NCBI RefSeq assembly: GCF_018882085.1
Contig: NZ_JACVPB010000001.1
Coordinates: forward strand, 1 to 64,000
Length of the DNA: 64,000 nt
Direction of reading: 5' to 3'
From: Polynucleobacter sp. AP-Reno-20A-A9
Lineage (GTDB): Bacteria; Pseudomonadota; Gammaproteobacteria; Burkholderiales; Burkholderiaceae
Shown here piece by piece: positions 53,437 through 63,612 of the stretch. Made by a program: the position numbers and the translations under genes. How positions within the stretch are numbered: the first letter of the stretch is position 1; every line of letters starts with the position of its first letter. The notes under the pieces were generated by a model, which was not told where the DNA came from, made no database searches, and saw only the letters and a list, made by a program, of their open reading frames with translations.

Positions 53437-53476
53437 TGGCGCGCCCGGCAGGAATCGAACCTGCGACGCTTCGGAG
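53437..53476 (-). pseudogene. 3' half of a tRNA-Arg gene at the island boundary
   Basis: Reading leftward: a TCCGAA segment, GCGTC, T-arm stem GCAGG, loop TTCGATT, stem CCTGC, acceptor 3' strand CGGGCGC, discriminator G and encoded CCA (ends at 53437). This is the 3' part of a tRNA-Arg. The D-arm and 5' acceptor strand are absent to the right, where AT-rich sequence follows. A 3'-fragment at one end and an intact tRNA at the other is the classical footprint of integrase insertion in a tRNA 3' half. The visible CCG could be the anticodon, or CCGAA the 3' anticodon stem, so the isoacceptor is uncertain. Confidence 0.85.
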
Positions 53477-53770
53477 ACCTCAACCGACAAAAAACATACA
53501 AATACTTTAAATAACTGTACATTGTCTAAAACGTCTTAAGCCCATATAGATAAAGGCTTTATAGTTAAAAAACTTGTTTTAATAGAGACTAAAAACAACG
53601 TTTAATAGCGGTTAATTTTTCAAGTAGATATTTCTCGAATAATTCGCAAAATAGGCTTGTTAGACCCCTAGCCTCAATGCTCAACAACCTTATTTTACGT
53701 TAAACGGCGTTCGTAAATATTTTATCAACCCCTGCTATTAAGGCGGTTATCAGTGCGGAGCTATTGTTTA
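53477..53770. other. AT-rich non-coding left end of the right-hand island
   Basis: No convincing ORF. Short words recur (GTCTAAAAC at about 53524, GACTAAAAAC at about 53586), which may be integrase arm sites, and there is a GCTATTAAGGC-type stretch near the toxin gene stop. It separates the tRNA-Arg fragment from the toxin-antitoxin genes. Confidence 0.4.
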
Positions 53771-54652
53771 TCACTTCGAGCTAAAGCCTTTATAAAAGAG
53801 ATCAAGATAAGCATGAACCTTCAGCACAGAATCCTCATCGCCGATGGAGAGGCTACTGCTGGTTAGTTGGTCGGTCAGTCGTCGTCTTAGTGTGGAGTCT
53901 GAAAATATAGCATCGATACCCTGCTTGGTTGAGTCTAAGCAAATCTTGGCAACATCTTTTCCCAACATCTGAATACCTGCCAACTCTGGGTCATATTCCA
54001 ATGATTCTAGTAGCGCCATTTCCTCCGTATAAATGCGATCCTCATTTCCGGCGTCGTGATGGCTTTTGGCGATAAGAAGAAAGTCGACGGCATCTTTACC
54101 TTGGTTTTCTTGGCCCCGGTCTTGCCAGGCAATTAGCTTGAGTGCGGCCATGCCCGCTAGCGATGCAACCCGTATAGAGAAATTCTCAGCAATCTTTAGC
54201 AAAATAGCTGATCTTAGGGCCTCAGAAAATCCAGAGACGTTCATAACCACATTCATTTCGGGTGGCCATTCAATCGTTGAATCTAAATTTTCAACTCCGC
54301 CAAATGGAATGAGATCAAGTGGTGTGGAGTATTGGTCCTGCGGTCTTTTAAAGTGCATTTTCTGTGGTGCCTTACCCTGGGTAAAGCAGCCCATGGAAAT
54401 CAAGCTTGATTTAAGTTTGTCAAACTTAGCCCAGTCTTCTAAGCAGATGCCCAGATCAAGATCATAGGTGGCCTGTCCGGTTCGCTTGTTAAATACATGC
54501 CCCAAGATAAGATCCCTTGCCTGGGCTCCAGCTAAAAAATAGTCAATATTTAAAGACCGTGCCACGTCATCAAAAATTCGTAAGATGGCCAAATGCTCCG
54601 CTTTTAAAGGGCGGTCAGGGCTAATTTCAAGCTTGAGTGAGATATCGGTCAT
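53771..54652 (-). CDS. AbiEii-like nucleotidyltransferase toxin
   Basis: A 293-residue protein of the AbiEii/DUF1814 nucleotidyltransferase type. The polymerase-beta-like core has the GAQARDLILGH motif (about 42-52), the D64-x-D66 pair in TYDLDLGI, and the third acid D113 in STPLDLIPFG. Such toxins transfer nucleotides, for example to tRNA acceptor ends, and stop growth; AbiE was first found as a phage abortive-infection system. It overlaps the antitoxin gene upstream by 26 bases, so translation is coupled. Likely toxin of a type IV system, and may also stabilise the island. Confidence 0.85.
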   Translation of the reverse strand: MTDISLKLEISPDRPLKAEHLAILRIFDDVARSLNIDYFLAGAQARDLILGHVFNKRTGQATYDLDLGICLEDWAKFDKLKSSLISMGCFTQGKAPQKMHFKRPQDQYSTPLDLIPFGGVENLDSTIEWPPEMNVVMNVSGFSEALRSAILLKIAENFSIRVASLAGMAALKLIAWQDRGQENQGKDAVDFLLIAKSHHDAGNEDRIYTEEMALLESLEYDPELAGIQMLGKDVAKICLDSTKQGIDAIFSDSTLRRRLTDQLTSSSLSIGDEDSVLKVHAYLDLFYKGFSSK

Positions 54653-55637
54653 AAATTAGTCTAGCTGTTTCAATATTGCGTGGATTGGTGGTGGCCAATA
54701 AATCTGCATATACCAGTAGCGCCGGCACAACTCCGTTCATTTGCAGTTCTGTATCTACTGCCCAAAAGGCTTCCAAAATTTCAATATCGCCGTTAACGTC
54801 AGGGCGCAGCCGATTTTCTACAATGAGTCGATCTAGGTTTTTACGGGCATAAATGGTGATCTTTGCAGGCTTGAGATAGCCGGTGAGCTTTTCTGCCGCG
54901 ACTTCCCCGCCCCAATAGGCGTCGTACTGCTCAATATTGACATCTCGATACCAATCTTCTTTGGCAGCAGTAAAGCGACGTGCATTTAGTTTTGGTCGTA
55001 ATTTAATGGGGTAGTGAGCCACCCATTCCTCTTCTAGTCGTTTCTTATCAAGAATTCGCCGTGGACCTAAGTCAGTAGGAGTGAGAAAACCGCGGTTTTC
55101 TAAATTCGTTAATACGGGGCCTACAGTTCCAAGAGCTACTTTGGCAAAAGTGGCTATTTCGCGATAAGTTTGGGGGGTGATGATTTTTTGATTAAGTAAT
55201 GCAAAGACAATTTTTAACCCGCCGGTTGTTAAGGCTGTGAATTCTGGCTTTTCATGAGTGCGCTCTGGACGAGCTTGACCAACAACATATACAAATAGCC
55301 CCGGAGTCTTAATATAAGCATTTCCAGCTTCATCAATGAAGGGCAAATCTAGCTCGCGACACTGGGTTGCAATTTCTTTGGTGATATAGGGAGCTACAAG
55401 CAAAACGGGCTTTGTGCGAGTTCCTAGCTCTCTGATATGCGTAAGCGTTTTGAAGCGATCGATTACCCCCTTAATTTCCGCCTCAAAATGAACGGGGTGA
55501 TCAGGGGTTTGAATAGTTAACAAGGCATCTGCTGGCCCTCCTTCCCAAACATGGTGGATCTGTAGGCCAGTAGTTCTCTGAAAAGCATCAATTGCTTTAG
55601 CGAGAATGAGCTGTTCTTTAGTTTCTAGGTTCATCAT
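54627..55637 (-). CDS. AbiEi-like antitoxin / autorepressor
   Basis: A 336-residue protein. An N-terminal region (about 5-125) resembles a restriction-like fold with FEAEIKGVID and the PFIDEAGNAYIKTPGLFVYVVG segment. A winged helix lies at about 140-195 (GGLKIVFALLNQKIITPQTY; KVALGTVGPVLTNLENRGFL). The C-terminal part resembles AbiEi-family antitoxins. It would block the AbiEii enzyme and repress the promoter by binding the two palindromes just upstream (55658-55674, 55722-55738). First gene of the operon; two ATG codons in a row allow a start at 55634 or 55637. Confidence 0.8.
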   Translation of the reverse strand: MMNLETKEQLILAKAIDAFQRTTGLQIHHVWEGGPADALLTIQTPDHPVHFEAEIKGVIDRFKTLTHIRELGTRTKPVLLVAPYITKEIATQCRELDLPFIDEAGNAYIKTPGLFVYVVGQARPERTHEKPEFTALTTGGLKIVFALLNQKIITPQTYREIATFAKVALGTVGPVLTNLENRGFLTPTDLGPRRILDKKRLEEEWVAHYPIKLRPKLNARRFTAAKEDWYRDVNIEQYDAYWGGEVAAEKLTGYLKPAKITIYARKNLDRLIVENRLRPDVNGDIEILEAFWAVDTELQMNGVVPALLVYADLLATTNPRNIETARLIYDRYLTQA

Positions 55638-55657: not shown

Positions 55658-55738
55658 GTTCACGTTACGTGAACGATATGCTTAATTGAACGCACCCCAC
55701 TTGTGTTCAACATATTTTATTGTACACGTTACGTGAAC
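55658..55738. promoter_or_regulatory. paired palindromic operators of the abiE-like operon
   Basis: The 17-bp palindrome GTTCACGTTACGTGAAC is at 55658-55674, and GTACACGTTACGTGAAC, with one difference, is at 55722-55738. Their centres are 64 bp apart, about six helical turns, and the first is 20 bp before the antitoxin start. This is what is expected for cooperative autorepression by AbiEi-type antitoxins. They lie in the 141-179-bp space shared with the divergent giant recombinase gene and may repress it too. Confidence 0.75.
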
Positions 55739-55816
55739 AATAGTCAATACTGAACAAACAAGATTCGGTCATATTGCTTGATTTGCAAACCGTCCTCTTT
55801 CGGTTTAAATGGTGGA

Positions 55817-58800
55817 ATGGGGAAATCAGGAAAAAGCAAAAGATCTGTTATTCGGATTTATGAAGAGAGCCCTGAGATTGAATTATTGCGAGAGCAATTC
55901 CCACCCCGCGCAAATTTACAAGCTGACGAAGTCGACCGACTATCTCGAGAGGACCTTAATCAATTTCTCTGGTTAGTTAGGCCAGAGCCTAAATTTCGGG
56001 CATTAGCACCAGCAATCGGTCGCCTTGCAGCCGTGTGTAAGGAAATGCAAAAACCTGAAACTGGAGGCCCAAAGATAGATTGGGCGCTTCTCTTGCGCGT
56101 GGCTAATGAGATTTACCGATTGGGTATTTGGGCCCACAAGGTAAATCCATCTCTTTTTGAAAATATGGGGGAATCAGATGATGCCGTTTCGGGCAGCCTC
56201 GAGGACGCTAGCGGTAAACCTCCCGTCAATCCCATTTTGCATCACGGATCTTCAGCATTTCCAATTTACTCAATATTAAGTAACGATATTTGGCTCAAGG
56301 GCGTTATCGATGCTGCGGACAGGCAAGACGACCCCAGGATGGTTGCCATGCGTCGATTGGCCGGATTTGCCATTATGCGAAATTTGGAGCTGCTCGACAT
56401 TACTAGGCAAATGCAAACAATTGAGGGTGAAGAGGAATCTGCCTTAAAGAAGATTACTGCAGTGCAGCAAAAGTTTACAGATCCTGTGTTGTTCCAGTGC
56501 GTGGATGTTGAAAAAGATCGATATCACTTTTACTTTGTGGGGGTTGAGCAAGCGATTCGGGAGTGGTCGCGGGATTGGGAGGGTGTTGATGAGGCAAATC
56601 AGTTGTTCCAATGGGCGCAATTGCCTTACCCCAAATTTAAAGAGCAGTGTCTTGACGAGTATTTGCATTTACAAGGCGCTCCCGGTAAAGAAAAAGTCAC
56701 ATTAACTAAATCACAAGCAAAGTTCAAATCGGTTTGTAGGGCATTTTCTAGTAGCGTTCGCAAATCAAAAATGAGCACATCGAAGTCCGGCTCTGGAGAG
56801 CGCTCAAGGGAAAAAGAAAATCCCGGTATTCAGTACCACGGCCTATATCGAGATATTTGGCTTAGTGAGGGCGATCTTCGGGGTAACGAGTTTGAGATTA
56901 TTCCCATTGATGACGCCACCATCACCGATGAATACATCGAAACACTAATAGAGCCTGGCGACGATGTTGGCGAAGAAATCGAAGATGATCGATCCGATGC
57001 GCCCCAGTTAAGGTGGGTTGCCCCGCAGGTGGGAAAGAGTCGGTTAGAGCTTGAAAGAGATTCTAGTTATACGCAACGGTTTATAGCTAAGCTTAACCAG
57101 CGATTGTATTGGGGCACCAATGTCGCTTCCTGGAAAGAAATGGAGCTGTTCAAAAACTATTTGGACAGTCTTGAGCGTGTGCTCAAGGGCGGCAATAAAG
57201 ACGTATCAGAGCGAGCCACCCAATTGAGCGCAATTATGACGCTGCGCCTAATGTATGTCTTGGGGGTCGATATTCACACGGCATTGAGCGCGCAAATCAT
57301 CTTGCGAGAGCGCGAGACTTGGCGCAGCGCCTATTCAAATTTTGAAGTTGGGGATGAGTTGCCTAAAGGTGATAAACCCAAATTGGGTAGCCAAACCTTG
57401 CACCTAGTAAAAGCCAATGCAATGCCCGTGAATCAGCCTCCAAGCTATATTTATTTGTGGAGATTATCGGTTCCCAATTACGCTTGGTCTGAACTGGTCA
57501 ATGTGCAGGCAGAGGAGTATGCGCCACACCTAGGGGCGATTGTTTTTCGAGACCTGTCGGGGGTGGCTAGCCAGATAGTGGCAGCCAATTCCCAAATATC
57601 AGAAACGCCCTCTCCCATATTTGCTCCCAGTGCACGACTGGAAATTGAAAAAAATTGTGAAAGCTTGCTTGCTCAATTTAATCGCGAGATGGATTTATAT
57701 AAGGCCAAGCGCCCGTTGACCTTGCTGAAGATCAGGGAGTGGAGCAAGCACCAAATGGTTGCGCAGAAATACGATCCAAAACTTCTAGATGTTTTAGATC
57801 CCCATACTCCAAGGGCTTTTAGGTCGGATTCACATTACTACACCCATAATTATTTTAAAGAAACAAGGCAACTAGGTTCTATTGATAAGTACTTAGAGGC
57901 CAGCATGGATGTGGGTGATATTCATGGGGCAGCAGCTTCGCAAGCAAGCAAAACAAGTATTTCTGACCTCTTCTCACAAAGAACGAAGCTACTCGGCGGC
58001 GATGTTGCAAAAGCACCCTTTAGGGGTATGAGGCCGAGCGTGGTGGGCGCAACGGGATTGGTTGCAATTGATGAGAATGAGAATCCAAAAGCCTTGATTG
58101 AGCAGATACAAGAATTAAAAAAGCAGATTGATATTCCGCGCTTGGCAAACGGAAGGGCTCAAGACTACAAGCAATTTTGTGATGCCTTTAATCAACTCAC
58201 CCTTTATTGCGCGGTTTGGTTTGCATGTGAAACTTCACAGCGTCCGCACCATCTTCCTTATGTAGACATTGCCTCAGTCGATCCATTCTTGGGTCTTACT
58301 CGTATCGGCGATAAAACCAATCGCGCCGGTGATCGGCTACGAGTCATTTGGTTAAGCCCGTTATTGCAAAAGCAAATGTGGGTATATGAACAACTGCGTC
58401 GCAAGTTGCTTAAAAAATTGCTCCCCGATGTCACGCAGCATGCTTTGTATGGGGAGCTAATCTGGCTTGAGGAGGTGCCCGTCTCAAAAAAACAAAAGAG
58501 CAATAAAAAAGGGGATGCCCTTAGCATGGCCGCATTGCCATTGGCCATTGAGAAATGGAGTAAGACCAAAATGCGGCGGCACTTTAGAGGCTATATTGAA
58601 AGCTCGATTGTTGCTCAGCCCAATTTTCACCGTAAGCTCATGCCCGCCTTATTAAAAAATTGGGGGATGAGTCAGACGGATATCAGCACTTGGCTTGGTC
58701 ATTGGCAAACGGGTACAGCGCCCTTTCATCAGTTTAGTTCTCATAGCTATTTAGAGTACATCGAGCGGATCGAAAACCCCATTCAAAAAACTATCAAGGG

Positions 58801-58858
58801 TTTGGGTTTTGAGCTTGTCACGTTGGCCATGCCAGCTTGGCCAAAGGAACAAAAGTAA
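55817..58858 (+). CDS. giant tyrosine-recombinase-like protein 1
   Basis: A protein of 1013 residues from the ATG at 55817 (MGKSGKSKRSVIRIYEE); the frame is open 13 codons further up. The C-terminal 230 residues have tyrosine recombinase landmarks: Arg near 808 in ETSQRPHHLPYVD, Lys in IGDKTNRAGDRL, an N-x-x-R box (NFHRKLM, near 935; Asn instead of the first His), Gly-His near 959 in STWLGHWQTG, and Tyr near 976 in HSYLEYI. The 800 preceding residues are unlike normal integrases: helical, with an acidic part (residues about 390-410) and no recognised domain. It is immediately followed by a second giant recombinase. Resembles large integrases of island-mobilising modules such as gamma-mobile-trio systems, but this is only analogy. 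Confidence 0.75.
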   Translation: MGKSGKSKRSVIRIYEESPEIELLREQFPPRANLQADEVDRLSREDLNQFLWLVRPEPKFRALAPAIGRLAAVCKEMQKPETGGPKIDWALLLRVANEIYRLGIWAHKVNPSLFENMGESDDAVSGSLEDASGKPPVNPILHHGSSAFPIYSILSNDIWLKGVIDAADRQDDPRMVAMRRLAGFAIMRNLELLDITRQMQTIEGEEESALKKITAVQQKFTDPVLFQCVDVEKDRYHFYFVGVEQAIREWSRDWEGVDEANQLFQWAQLPYPKFKEQCLDEYLHLQGAPGKEKVTLTKSQAKFKSVCRAFSSSVRKSKMSTSKSGSGERSREKENPGIQYHGLYRDIWLSEGDLRGNEFEIIPIDDATITDEYIETLIEPGDDVGEEIEDDRSDAPQLRWVAPQVGKSRLELERDSSYTQRFIAKLNQRLYWGTNVASWKEMELFKNYLDSLERVLKGGNKDVSERATQLSAIMTLRLMYVLGVDIHTALSAQIILRERETWRSAYSNFEVGDELPKGDKPKLGSQTLHLVKANAMPVNQPPSYIYLWRLSVPNYAWSELVNVQAEEYAPHLGAIVFRDLSGVASQIVAANSQISETPSPIFAPSARLEIEKNCESLLAQFNREMDLYKAKRPLTLLKIREWSKHQMVAQKYDPKLLDVLDPHTPRAFRSDSHYYTHNYFKETRQLGSIDKYLEASMDVGDIHGAAASQASKTSISDLFSQRTKLLGGDVAKAPFRGMRPSVVGATGLVAIDENENPKALIEQIQELKKQIDIPRLANGRAQDYKQFCDAFNQLTLYCAVWFACETSQRPHHLPYVDIASVDPFLGLTRIGDKTNRAGDRLRVIWLSPLLQKQMWVYEQLRRKLLKKLLPDVTQHALYGELIWLEEVPVSKKQKSNKKGDALSMAALPLAIEKWSKTKMRRHFRGYIESSIVAQPNFHRKLMPALLKNWGMSQTDISTWLGHWQTGTAPFHQFSSHSYLEYIERIENPIQKTIKGLGFELVTLAMPAWPKEQK

Positions 58859-61800
58859 GTGAGCGCCAAGCCAACTACCGCCAAAGAAGTGCAAAAGGCG
58901 CATGAGGTGATGTGCGCCCAATTAAGGGCCCATCTGCGCGCGTTACCAACCAACCCGCATTTACTTGCAATCATTACGCAGATTGCTCGTCCCCACCAAG
59001 ATGCCAATCAAATCCTAAACACTTCTCCTGAGCAGATTGGCGCAATGATTTGTTCCAAGATTCGAGAATGTATTGAAAAAGAATACTTGGCTAGGGGCGA
59101 GCTCTCTCAGATTGGTTGCGCTCTATTGGGCATTTCTCGGCAAGCTCTGGGCGCCTCTTTGCAAAAAGCGTTACAAGGCCACTTCCTGCCAGATGAGCGG
59201 TTGCGTAACGTGGACACGTTGCGCCTGGAAAATCCTGCCCACTATATGCCGGGCGTGCAGACGCTTTTCAAAGCGCTGTTTAGTTTGTCCGATGGTTTTC
59301 TAAGTTGGAAAAAATGGTTATTTGATGTGGTTGATGCAGATCTCTGCGCCCAGCAAAAACTCGAGTGGCCTGGGCTGGGAACTATTGAAGTCGTTTTGCC
59401 AGAGCCCAATCCTTATCGACACTTTGATTACAAAAAAGCGGGGGAGGGTTTACCTGCCGGGGTGAAAAAAGAAAGGTTGGAGAAAGAAGCGCAGCAGGCG
59501 TTGGCACTTCGCCTCATCATTGCGGCCTTTACCAATCAGCGTTTTGGAAAATTTGATTGGGAGGCATTACAGCCAAAAGCACAGTTTGGTGGTTATCTAT
59601 TTAGCGCCATCGTTTTTTCTGGGGTGCAAGATTTGGGGAGGCTCAAGCAAATTGCAGATCTTAGTCTGGCTAAGGAGGAGTTAGACGCGCCCTATTCCAG
59701 TCTACTGTTGCCACGCAATCAAAAGCTCCGAATGGATGCTGCCTATGTCGCGCTTGAAAAGGCTCGCAAGGAAAGTAAGAACAAAGCACCTAGACATACA
59801 AAAGAGTATGGGCCCGATCTCTCACGCTGGATTGCCGATCCACTGACCGCTGCCCTGCATTCTCACTATCGGGAAAATTGGATCTTTACTGATCGAGGAC
59901 CTAAGTTTGCAAGTGAGTGCTTGAAGGCATTTATGGGAGCGGTAAAAGGCGAGTTGCGCATTCAAAAAACAGCTAATGAAATGGGGATGGATGAAGAGGC
60001 TTTGTTTGAAGCAATTGATTTACTCTCCACACGTAAGGCATTGATGTATGCCACGCAATCTTGGCAAGAAGATACCTTGCCTACATTTATTGCGCGCTAT
60101 TTGGCGGGAAGAATTTCTACCAAAGATCTGCAGATTGAAAACTTGCTTCAACTAGGCATGTCAGATGCGAAGATGCCAACAGCCAAAATCGCAAAAGAAA
60201 ATCTTGATGATGCTTGGTCTGATAGTGAAGATGAGATCGAGGTTCGGGAAGGCGAAGCCGAAAGCCAGGCGCCCTCTCCAGTGGCAATGCAGTGGATTGA
60301 GCAAATCCTTGAGGCTATCTCGCACTTGAGTTACGAAGTCCCGGCAACCCAAGAGCGATGCTTGGGCGCGATTGAGGAAATAGAAAAGCGCTATCAACTG
60401 TCCGAGCAAAGATTGACTCGCAGCTTATTGAAGTGGGTGCGTCATTTAATTGTGCAAGACTGGGCATCTAAAGGCCTCACCTCAGAAATGCTCACGAGCT
60501 ATCTCCAGTTAATGTTACCGCTGGCCATGGCTGATTGGGATTTAGATGAAGGCTTAGAGGAATTTACATCTGAAGATTGGGGTGAGGAATTCGTAGAGCT
60601 TTACGTTCAATTAACAACACCAAAAGATCAAAAAATCTTTAAAGCAGCTTGGGAAAGTTTGCGAAAAAGTCAGTTAACCGAAGCAGAAAAAGGCTTAAGA
60701 CCTGAATCACAAGTTGATGTTGGTTATTTAACGGAGCTTGAATTTCGCTGGACTCAGATTGACCTTTACACAGTTGCTTGTCGTAAGTTACCGACTGAAT
60801 ATAAGAACGCCTGCCTGATCATTTTCACGCTTGGCTATCGCTTGGGCTTACGAAGATCTGAGGTGCTTAAGCTTGCCACTAGCCATGTGCATATCAAAAC
60901 AGGCTGGCCCACTGAAATTTCCGTACAGTGGTGGAAGCATCGCCGCTTAAAGACAGCCTCTTCAGTGCGCATACTGCCTGTCGAGGCTCTGCTTGATCCC
61001 AGAGAATTGAACTGGTTAAAGTTGTGGGCTGCTGCTCGTGAGCAAGGCGCTTTATGTGTTGATGAGCTGATCAAAATTGAAGCGCCTGAACACAAAGCGA
61101 GCCCTTTAGGTGGACAAACCAAGGTACCTGAACCTGGGCTGTATACGGCAGACGAGTTGGAATTCTTATTCCCGGTGCCAATGAGCGCTAAAGCGCGCGA
61201 GGAGCATTCCCTAGAAATAACGAGCAACACCGAGCGCGACAAAATCATTGACTATATTCATGAGTCGATGAGGCGGGTCACAAAAAATCGCTATATCCGC
61301 TTTCATCATCTGCGGCACTCAGCGGCGATGAATACCTTAATGCTTTTATGCGCGCCGCGATTGCCTAATTCTGAGCGCTTCATACTTGATCACCTTTATG
61401 GCAATACGGAAATCCAGGCGCGCATTGCGAGGGATCATGCAGCTGTTGGAATGGCCGATGGAAGTAATCCCATTTTGCAGATTAGAAATCTCAAGCGTCG
61501 CATGGGATATGCCCGTTATTTTTTACTCAATGATTCACGGGCAAGTCCATCTGAACTTTATGTCGTATCTACTTTGCTTGGGCACTCTTCGCCTGCAACT
61601 ACTCTATATAGCTACATCCACGTGATTGATGTATTGACCGGCGCTTTTTTGCATGAACGTTTGTTGCGCTTAAACCCGGGGCTACTAAATGCACTCTATC
61701 CTGGCACCAAACGTAATTTAGACATCAGACGTAAGCGGTGCAAAACGCCATTTGATGACCCAAAGGCTGGGCTAGATAAAGTTCCGGTGTTACTTAATGA

Positions 61801-62521
61801 GGTGATGAGTCCAGGGCCAAAGATTCAGAAGCAGGATTCAAAGCATTTAAACCTTGTGCAGATATTGAATCCTCAAGCTGGACGAGGCATGGAATGGGCT
61901 TGCGATAGTTTTGAGAGACTTCTCGGCTCACAAGAAAAGCAGTTTGCTAAAACGGCGGCGCTACTTGACATTCCGAAAGAGCTTGCTCGCCAGTGGATTG
62001 GCAATGCCACACAGTTCACCAATAAAGCCGATCTATATTCATCAGATAGAAAGTATCTTTACGAAAATTTACCCGATACCTTGCCCAAGGCTTTTATTGT
62101 CAAAAAGCCGCGTATGCGAGGAGGGATCAAGAAGGCTGATCAATGGCTTACAAAAGCAATTGCGTATTTTGAAATGCATCCTGACGATATCTTCTTATTA
62201 CTTGATTACGCCAGAGAGCGGATTCGGGCTAGAGCCGAGACGATTAAATTTACTCAGAAAGAATTGGGTACGGGGCAACACAAAAGAAAGGGTGCGGTAA
62301 TTTCAAACCCAATCAACCAAATTTATATGAGATTTCTTGATGCTTTGGAAATTAAATATGCACCGACTGGTAAGAATAGCCTGGAATTGAGGTGTGAGGG
62401 AAAGGCGGCGGATGATTTGCCATTTGCTTTCAGGCAGACGATGATTTTGTTGGGGATGTTGTTATATTTTCAGGCAGCCGTTAACCCTATTTTAGTCATT
62501 CAAGATCAAATACGTGGATAG
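58859..62521 (+). CDS. giant tyrosine-recombinase-like protein 2
   Basis: A 1220-residue protein beginning at GTG, directly after the stop of protein 1, with AAAGGAAC upstream as ribosome-binding site. Complete tyrosine recombinase core: Arg near 664 in LGYRLGLRRSEVLKL, His-x-x-Arg near 815 in FHHLRHSAAMNTL, Gly-His near 906 in TLLGHSSPATTLYSYIHV with the Tyr near 915. About 650 residues precede the core and 300 follow it, ending in a hydrophobic segment; both are far beyond normal integrases. An acidic stretch (DDAWSDSEDEIEVREGEAE) is at about 450-470. The pair probably acts as a complex on the tRNA-Arg att sites. Confidence 0.8.
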   Translation: MSAKPTTAKEVQKAHEVMCAQLRAHLRALPTNPHLLAIITQIARPHQDANQILNTSPEQIGAMICSKIRECIEKEYLARGELSQIGCALLGISRQALGASLQKALQGHFLPDERLRNVDTLRLENPAHYMPGVQTLFKALFSLSDGFLSWKKWLFDVVDADLCAQQKLEWPGLGTIEVVLPEPNPYRHFDYKKAGEGLPAGVKKERLEKEAQQALALRLIIAAFTNQRFGKFDWEALQPKAQFGGYLFSAIVFSGVQDLGRLKQIADLSLAKEELDAPYSSLLLPRNQKLRMDAAYVALEKARKESKNKAPRHTKEYGPDLSRWIADPLTAALHSHYRENWIFTDRGPKFASECLKAFMGAVKGELRIQKTANEMGMDEEALFEAIDLLSTRKALMYATQSWQEDTLPTFIARYLAGRISTKDLQIENLLQLGMSDAKMPTAKIAKENLDDAWSDSEDEIEVREGEAESQAPSPVAMQWIEQILEAISHLSYEVPATQERCLGAIEEIEKRYQLSEQRLTRSLLKWVRHLIVQDWASKGLTSEMLTSYLQLMLPLAMADWDLDEGLEEFTSEDWGEEFVELYVQLTTPKDQKIFKAAWESLRKSQLTEAEKGLRPESQVDVGYLTELEFRWTQIDLYTVACRKLPTEYKNACLIIFTLGYRLGLRRSEVLKLATSHVHIKTGWPTEISVQWWKHRRLKTASSVRILPVEALLDPRELNWLKLWAAAREQGALCVDELIKIEAPEHKASPLGGQTKVPEPGLYTADELEFLFPVPMSAKAREEHSLEITSNTERDKIIDYIHESMRRVTKNRYIRFHHLRHSAAMNTLMLLCAPRLPNSERFILDHLYGNTEIQARIARDHAAVGMADGSNPILQIRNLKRRMGYARYFLLNDSRASPSELYVVSTLLGHSSPATTLYSYIHVIDVLTGAFLHERLLRLNPGLLNALYPGTKRNLDIRRKRCKTPFDDPKAGLDKVPVLLNEVMSPGPKIQKQDSKHLNLVQILNPQAGRGMEWACDSFERLLGSQEKQFAKTAALLDIPKELARQWIGNATQFTNKADLYSSDRKYLYENLPDTLPKAFIVKKPRMRGGIKKADQWLTKAIAYFEMHPDDIFLLLDYARERIRARAETIKFTQKELGTGQHKRKGAVISNPINQIYMRFLDALEIKYAPTGKNSLELRCEGKAADDLPFAFRQTMILLGMLLYFQAAVNPILVIQDQIRG

Positions 62522-62703: not shown

Positions 62704-63612
62704 TTACTTTGGAAGACCAACTGTTGCTTCAATTCGAGCTTTAAGTTTTTGTTTTAAATCCGCTAGATTGTTTGGCTCCCAAACAAGAAAGTTGTATTGA
62801 CGATTATCAAAATGTATTTTTTTAAGATCTTTTTTTCTAACCATCCAAATTACTGGAATGTTTAGTCCAAGAGCATAGCCAGCTTCAAAATAAACTCCGC
62901 CCCGATTGCCGCTAAAGTCTGCAAGTATAAATCTGCTCTTTTTGATTGCGGTAATAATTTCATCATCGATTTTATTGTTGTGTTGGCGCTCATCAATTCG
63001 AATGGGATCGTAGCCAAGTTCGGATATGGCTGGCGATATTGATTTAGCCCAGAGAGGCTTGACTGAATCATCAAACCACATAGCGCAGAAAGCCTTTTTG
63101 CTATCCGAATTTATTCGACTTAATTCATGTATGTGATCCCAGCCGGCTGGGGAGATAACGAACGGTTGACCACCATGCTGTGGGTTGGAAATGTAGTGTT
63201 TATAGTCCTTTAAATACCTACTGAAAATATAGCTTGCTTCATCTTTGTCAATTGCATAGCAACAAGAGAGCTCTTGACCACAAGCCTGAAAAGCCAACTC
63301 TTGATTTGGTTTCGGGAATTTTTTTGTAAGGTATAGCAATAACAAGTCTGACTTTTCGCCAACGCTAGGATTATTTTTTGATGCAATTTGACTCCAGCAG
63401 GCTTCGTCCAAAATAATTCCAGGATTGTTATAAACCCAGCCACTTGCCTTGGCAATTTCTTCGGGCGTGGGATTTTCAGGTGAAGAATGTAGGAACGAGG
63501 CGTCTGCTTTATATTCTCCACACCTGAAACAATTAACTTTAAGAATTAGCCTCGGGGCATTTTCTATCTCTTCTTCGCTGGCGCTTAGATTCAAGCAAAC
63601 TGGACATTTCAT
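62704..63612 (-). CDS. zinc-finger plus nucleoside deoxyribosyltransferase/TIR-like fold protein
   Basis: A 302-residue protein. An N-terminal zinc finger has C3-x2-C6 and C28-x2-C31 (MKCPVCLNLS, VNCFRCGEYK). A middle segment ends in a winged-helix-like FVISPAGWDHIHEL (about 151-164). The C-terminal part (about 172-280) matches the nucleoside 2-deoxyribosyltransferase/TIR-like fold: FCAMWFDDSVKPLW, ERQHNNKIDDEIITAIKKSR, FILADFSGNRGGVYFEAGYA with D232 and probable catalytic E243. The fold cuts N-glycosidic bonds of nucleosides or NAD. In bacteria such proteins are often defence effectors. Cotranscribed with a small membrane protein (8-base gap). Substrate unknown. Confidence 0.75.
   Translation of the reverse strand: MKCPVCLNLSASEEEIENAPRLILKVNCFRCGEYKADASFLHSSPENPTPEEIAKASGWVYNNPGIILDEACWSQIASKNNPSVGEKSDLLLLYLTKKFPKPNQELAFQACGQELSCCYAIDKDEASYIFSRYLKDYKHYISNPQHGGQPFVISPAGWDHIHELSRINSDSKKAFCAMWFDDSVKPLWAKSISPAISELGYDPIRIDERQHNNKIDDEIITAIKKSRFILADFSGNRGGVYFEAGYALGLNIPVIWMVRKKDLKKIHFDNRQYNFLVWEPNNLADLKQKLKARIEATVGLPK

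Follow-up and report, generated by a model that had tools for sequence, protein, structure and literature searches.

The first 64,000 nucleotides of contig C11 of Polynucleobacter sp. AP-Reno-20A-A9 (positions 1-64000; genome G000, 2.18 Mb), here called the window, contain two adjacent giant genes, P1 and P2, on a genomic island that ends at a tRNA-Arg remnant. With a confidence only slightly better than even, P1 and P2 are read here as a recombination module that stands at the end of mobile islands and of plasmid cargo, in which P1 would be a dead and P2 an active tyrosine recombinase, and in which the tRNA gene would be served by a separate integrase. The two genes are:

55817..58858, + strand: P1, putative giant pseudo-recombinase, 1013 amino acids (aa) from an ATG start (open reading frame and alignment)
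58859..62521, + strand: P2, putative giant tyrosine recombinase, 1220 aa from a GTG start (open reading frame and alignment)

The open reading frames (ORFs) of the window leave zero bases between the two genes, which lie on the same strand; an alternative TTG start at 55778 would extend P1 to 1026 aa. An initial annotation, made from the DNA letters, had described adjacent same-strand giant recombinases of 1013 and 1220 aa with long extensions, and both points were confirmed: each protein holds a recombinase domain, and the extensions are real, that at the C-terminus of P2 comprising about 300 aa. Integrases usually have 300-450 aa, and P1 and P2 are about two to three times that size. In the two alignments with relatives, from which the broken P2 of genome G782 was left out, P1 ranged from 725 to 1017 aa and P2 from 947 to 1274 aa, while the smallest P2 among the 20 stretches fetched from relatives had 732 aa.

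Residues 654-826 of P2 matched a PHROG integrase (2.6e-8), and Pfam Phage_integrase was matched at 5e-4 with a score under the gathering threshold. All domain-library matches of P2 fell within residues 641-826, the last His (909) and the Tyr (919) lying farther on. For P1 no direct match to integrase families was obtained in searches of NCBIfam, Pfam, PADLOC and PHROG, and its catalytic boxes are visible in a 17-member alignment. In PADLOC, P2 had no match and P1 a single one with an E value of 0.036, and PDB sequence profiles gave no match for the pair. The catalytic positions in the window proteins are:

P1: R809, K833, N936, R939 and H962, with Phe973 at the likely position of the Tyr
P2: R665, K698, H816, R819, H820, H909 and Y919

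The Arg-Lys-Asn-Arg-His set of P1 was invariant in all 17 rows, including the Asn in place of the first His of box II (N936) to which the initial annotation had drawn attention. Eleven residues after the last His, P1 proteins carry Tyr (6/17), Phe (8), His (2) or Ser (1); no invariant tyrosine column was present in the 17-row alignment, some rows having another Tyr farther on. Because the former set is kept and the tyrosine is not invariant, P1 would seem to be an inactive, DNA-holding pseudo-recombinase partner; a nucleophile may still lie elsewhere in the protein. The P2 alignment showed Arg, Lys, Arg, His and Tyr in 17/17 rows, the box-II His in 15/17 and the second His in 16/17. P2 thus possesses the tyrosine recombinase residue set (Arg, Lys, His-x-x-Arg, His, Tyr), in agreement with the full catalytic set first ascribed to it, and since its Arg/Lys/Arg/His/Tyr set is invariant, it looks like an active enzyme. 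These 17 rows include a Sphingobium protein (L019) whose upstream gene is not shown to be P1, and the rows of the window and of L013 are closely related, so that the alignment rows are not wholly independent. Judged by these residues, P2 would act as the catalytic recombinase of the module, and P1, a putative tyrosine-recombinase fold keeping the phosphate-binding residues, would probably take part in a mixed synaptic complex without cleaving DNA.

The pair is recurrent. Among 299 genomes of the family P2 was found in the own genome only, a DNA-pattern scan located it at six loci, and the P2 and P1 profiles each matched 3 of 369 class genomes, the own genome included. The 17-member P1 profile matched 19 of 398 phylum genomes (own included), representing 13 of 212 genera. 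The nearest named relatives are Polynucleobacter records and uncultured beta-proteobacterial metagenome-assembled genomes; distant P1-P2 pairs were detected by tblastn and profile searches in plasmid-collection records of Vibrio, Aeromonas, Ketogulonicigenium and Acinetobacter. The 20 fetched stretches cover 21 of the 26 listed places, the own locus and four others being left out. P2 lies behind P1 on the same strand in 19 of them, and the twentieth stops at a contig end. P1 is split in two in one of these 19, which also include a P1-P2 fusion in a single frame of 1862 aa (L143:6288-11876, genome G1013).

Directly 5′ of P1, a small gene of 139-226 aa, termed S, is found in 14/20 stretches, a count that took in frames of at least 110 aa or with a match to a hidden Markov model (HMM) and would miss a shorter S. 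In genomes G686 and G704, which carry a P2 of about 30% identity in a tRNA-Arg island like that of the window, P1 is preceded by an S of 185 aa. S was not seen in the lineage of the window, so the statement of the initial annotation that no third partner is visible holds for the window but not for many relatives. S proteins are barely alike, with three matching pairs among nine (blastp E≤0.01). Their role would be that of auxiliary DNA-binding proteins. The idea that P1 is a fusion of S and P1 was rejected: the window P1 aligns from residue 1 with that of G686, where S is a gene of its own.

The island is delimited by two tRNA features:

53437..53479, − strand: 3′ remnant of tRNA-Arg(CCG), island end (att copy), found by match to the intact gene
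contig C11:69656-69731, beyond the window: intact tRNA-Arg(CCG) (ARAGORN)

The remnant, reported earlier as a truncated tRNA-Arg, matches the 3′ part of the intact gene at 88%, with 35 bp at 97%, and the two copies are direct repeats; Rfam returned for the remnant only a chance-level tmRNA fragment (E 0.22). The island spans about 16.2 kb. P1-P2 occupies the remnant end, and the intact tRNA is adjoined by an ORF of 533 aa with Arm-DNA-bind_2 and Phage_integrase domains, overlapped by an ORF of 82 aa that is called Xis-like by position and size only. An intact tRNA, a displaced 3′ copy and an integrase adjoining the tRNA, the marks of a tRNA-type genomic island, are all present. The ordinary integrase likewise adjoins the intact tRNA in the islands of G667, G668, G686 and G704, five with the window; two of these four showed a Xis-like gene as well, and for the remaining two only frames of at least 90 aa were listed. 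Six islands have P1-P2 at the end with the tRNA remnant. Because an ordinary integrase and a Xis-like gene adjoin the intact tRNA, the pair is probably not the tRNA-Arg integrase. The initial annotation had suggested that the pair may mobilise the island; the two recombinases do form a conserved unit on a tRNA-Arg island, but mobilisation at the tRNA is doubtful. The separate ordinary integrase probably put the whole island into tRNA-Arg, and P1-P2 would control recombination tied to the cargo region starting at the 3′ end of P2.

The ordinary integrase occurs in 11 of 151 genomes of the genus, own included. Of the ten others, five have a P2 match, two of which resemble by coordinates the assemblies behind L013 and L012; the other five, among them a genome of only 79% completeness, have none. 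In G782, a P2 with two TGA stops lies distant from the integrase. An HMM built from seven integrases matched seven of the 20 stretches (1e-129 to 8e-166), the integrase 3′ end facing that of P2 in four, following in tandem downstream in two and lying on the S side in one. In G410 and G353 the integrase also faces P2, with little or nothing between them, and in five Polynucleobacter-type islands it faces P2 across the cargo, which thus lies between the two operons. An HD-domain gene follows the integrase in G410 and in the G668 island, and HD-profile matches lie near two of the seven integrase stretches (L139, L146).

Comparison of relatives placed a cargo border at the 3′ end of P2:

62440..62454, + strand: last conserved P2 stretch, GATGATTTTGTTGGG

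The window, G667, G668 and G669 share P2 through GTTGGG (62454) and then diverge, G668 having one mismatch just before; in a fifth relative the contig ends at this border. The DNA beyond 62454 differs, and therefore the final ~21 codons of the window P2, with its stop, come from the cargo side. A similar comparison was made for Acinetobacter plasmids with a preceding backbone of 96-97% identity: NZ_CP083948 and NZ_CP093969 diverge from NZ_CP089040 2 bp past the P2 stop by eye, the blastn segments ending 18 bp past it, and differ from each other from 44 bp past the stop, where an insertion-sequence-like end stands against a 19.7-kb insert.

A P2-end core, GRAATAGCCTAAGC, was present at the P2 end of 8 of the 11 Acinetobacter plasmids searched. 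Ten extra copies with at most one mismatch were found in these plasmids, about one being expected by chance (estimate), and at up to two mismatches the pattern gave 34 matches against 10 for a reversed control. In 7/11 plasmids an extra copy lies in direct orientation to P2, 1.8 kb to ~77 kb downstream; two of these seven have no core at the P2 end. An extra copy in inverted orientation is present in three plasmids. One orphan copy encodes 24 residues like the P2 C-terminus (tblastn E 1e-3), while the remaining ones had no such match at that level. In five plasmids, moreover, 15-bp inverted arms lie ~30-80 bp past P2, two of the five having just the left arm. The spacer between the arms contains two cargo junctions; one adjoins an IS3 transposase gene, and an insertion sequence may therefore have made it. 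Because of the extra P2-end cores, the direct copies, the arm/spacer junctions and a spacer inversion in one plasmid, it can tentatively be proposed, as a doubtful extension of the reading, that S-P1-P2 is a self-contained cargo port whose giant recombinases have their target site where the P2 gene ends (3′). Incoming elements would dock at the P2 end, re-supply it and displace the old tail to the far side. The proposal is weakened by the relatedness of the plasmids, the inverted copies in three of them, the core missing at two P2 ends and the IS3-adjacent junction.

In one of the plasmids compared (L084 and L153-L156), the spacer between the arms is inverted relative to the others (18/19 bases). 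Two further site candidates were discarded: a palindrome 3′ of every P2, its arms occurring at varying places with nothing consistent, and attC-like repeats between Polynucleobacter-type cargo genes, where module borders by eye lie mostly at gene ends and share no common motif.

Cargo in the window flanks the pair on both sides:

53771..54652, − strand: AbiEii-like toxin gene, cargo between att and P1 (Pfam AbiEii, 1.3e-5)
54627..55637, − strand: AbiEi-like antitoxin gene (Pfam AbiEi_2, 2.6e-40)
62704..63612, − strand: TIR / nucleoside-deoxyribosyltransferase-like gene, first cargo after P2 (PADLOC TIR effector, 1.3e-14)

Among six islands compared, the AbiEi/AbiEii-like type IV toxin-antitoxin pair is confined to those of the window and G667. 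Between the AbiE genes and P1, a palindromic motif, CACGTTACGTGAAC, occurs in two copies (55661-55738). Two adjacent genes, L010:59-1311 (contig 64058-65310), one of which appears helix-turn-helix-like by eye, are found in 5/6 islands. In several Acinetobacter plasmids (L153, L154, L155, L158 and L082), BREX or BREX-associated genes lie within ~12 kb after P2, DUF1819 and DUF1788 being domains linked to BREX.

Several observations weigh against a recombination module at the cargo border. The structure predictions that the initial annotation had called for gave unusable models, with mean predicted local distance difference test (pLDDT) values of 35.0 for P2 (residues ~470-1201) and 32.9 for P1, and so do not account for the N- and C-terminal extensions. 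The integrase HMM was unmatched in 13/20 stretches (3 to 19.5 kb, several of them short). G686 and G704 diverge ~91 bp past the P2 stop and not at it, and the differing C-terminal tails of distant P2 proteins are ordinary divergence. In GInt elements the cargo border is of the same type, yet the att sites are found at other positions (PMC5385486), and the border alone is therefore no proof of a crossover there. In four close islands the window-type border sequence had no second copy at up to two mismatches, and no orphan P2 tail was found in Polynucleobacter-type islands. The absence of S from the window lineage may mean that the module is impaired there or that S is dispensable. A circular form, an empty site or activity was not seen.

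Three other explanations were weighed. In one, P1-P2, with or without S, itself integrates the island at tRNA-Arg, as Gin does for GInts, the ordinary integrase being foreign or co-working. The position of the module at the remnant end of six islands would fit, as would the tRNA-Val found near it in L145 and L074, on the side of S or of the P1 5′ end, and GInt operons too mark one island end, with cargo from the last stop codon (PMC5385486). Since the ordinary integrase adjoins the intact tRNA in five islands, and G685 has that integrase by tRNA-Arg with no P2 match, this explanation is considered unlikely, somewhat more so than the cargo port.

Still less probable is that P1-P2 serves the ordinary integrase as an accessory for directionality or replication-linked excision and has no sites of its own. 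The same integrase family does recur near the module, often convergent, but the Arg, Lys, Arg, His and Tyr of P2 are kept throughout and 13/20 stretches show no such integrase. An equally low probability is given to a hitch-hiker or defence pair that uses recombinase folds for a non-mobility purpose; the often defence-type neighbours (AbiE, TIR-like, BREX) speak for it, whereas the invariant P2 residues, the repeated placement at island ends and the nearly blank PADLOC result speak against it. If the reading as a P1-P2 recombination module is true, a new variety of multi-recombinase mobile elements with a conserved pseudo-recombinase would be at hand. It could help explain how freshwater bacteria and Acinetobacter plasmids exchange their defence genes (BREX, AbiE, TIR-like). 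With its invariant Asn and its missing Tyr, P1 offers a direct way to test what dead recombinase partners do.

The gamma-mobile-trio (Gmt) is a recombinase trio on defence-rich islands, and the initial annotation had likened the pair to it. This likeness was not upheld by the profile search it had proposed: NCBIfam gave no match for P1 or P2 (E≤1) or for seven P1/P2 relatives and one S (E≤10), and Gmt membership was rejected; in the own genome nothing scored above the cut-off of the GmtY model (441 positions). For the RIT and Tn554-type families, which were to be searched as well, gene count and residues were compared from descriptions, and the pair fits neither. RIT elements (RitA-RitC) resemble it in their adjacent, overlapping recombinase genes, but there are three of these and not two, and all three products may have a catalytic motif. 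Tn554-type elements (TnpA, TnpB, TnpC) share with it tandem recombinases, a small third protein in many cases and, in the actinobacterial kind, one abnormally long recombinase of 611-828 aa, but both recombinases keep a catalytic motif there (PMC3414803), whereas P1 has no invariant Tyr. No account of a P1-P2 module was recognised in the open papers searched, which is weak evidence of absence.

Nearer in organisation are two other systems, each known here from part of its source. Strand-biased circularizing integrative elements (SE; PMC10214605) carry an IntA-Tfp-IntB-Srap operon at one element end, in which Tfp, a non-catalytic recombinase fold, stands beside active recombinases and a small auxiliary protein; by that description they have two active recombinases in another gene order, while the present module comprises one putatively active and one degenerate recombinase plus S. 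GInts (PMC5385486) carry ginA-ginB-ginC-ginD, three recombinase genes followed by a small gene. As here, a recombinase operon with one degenerate member and a small gene lies at one island end, and the cargo begins at the last stop codon. Compared by organisation, the present module differs in having two giant recombinases, with the small gene first or absent, and P1 keeps the first Arg and lacks an invariant Tyr, whereas GinC is without that Arg. Likened by these descriptions, P1-P2 is best read as a GInt/SE-like module that would represent a new variety.

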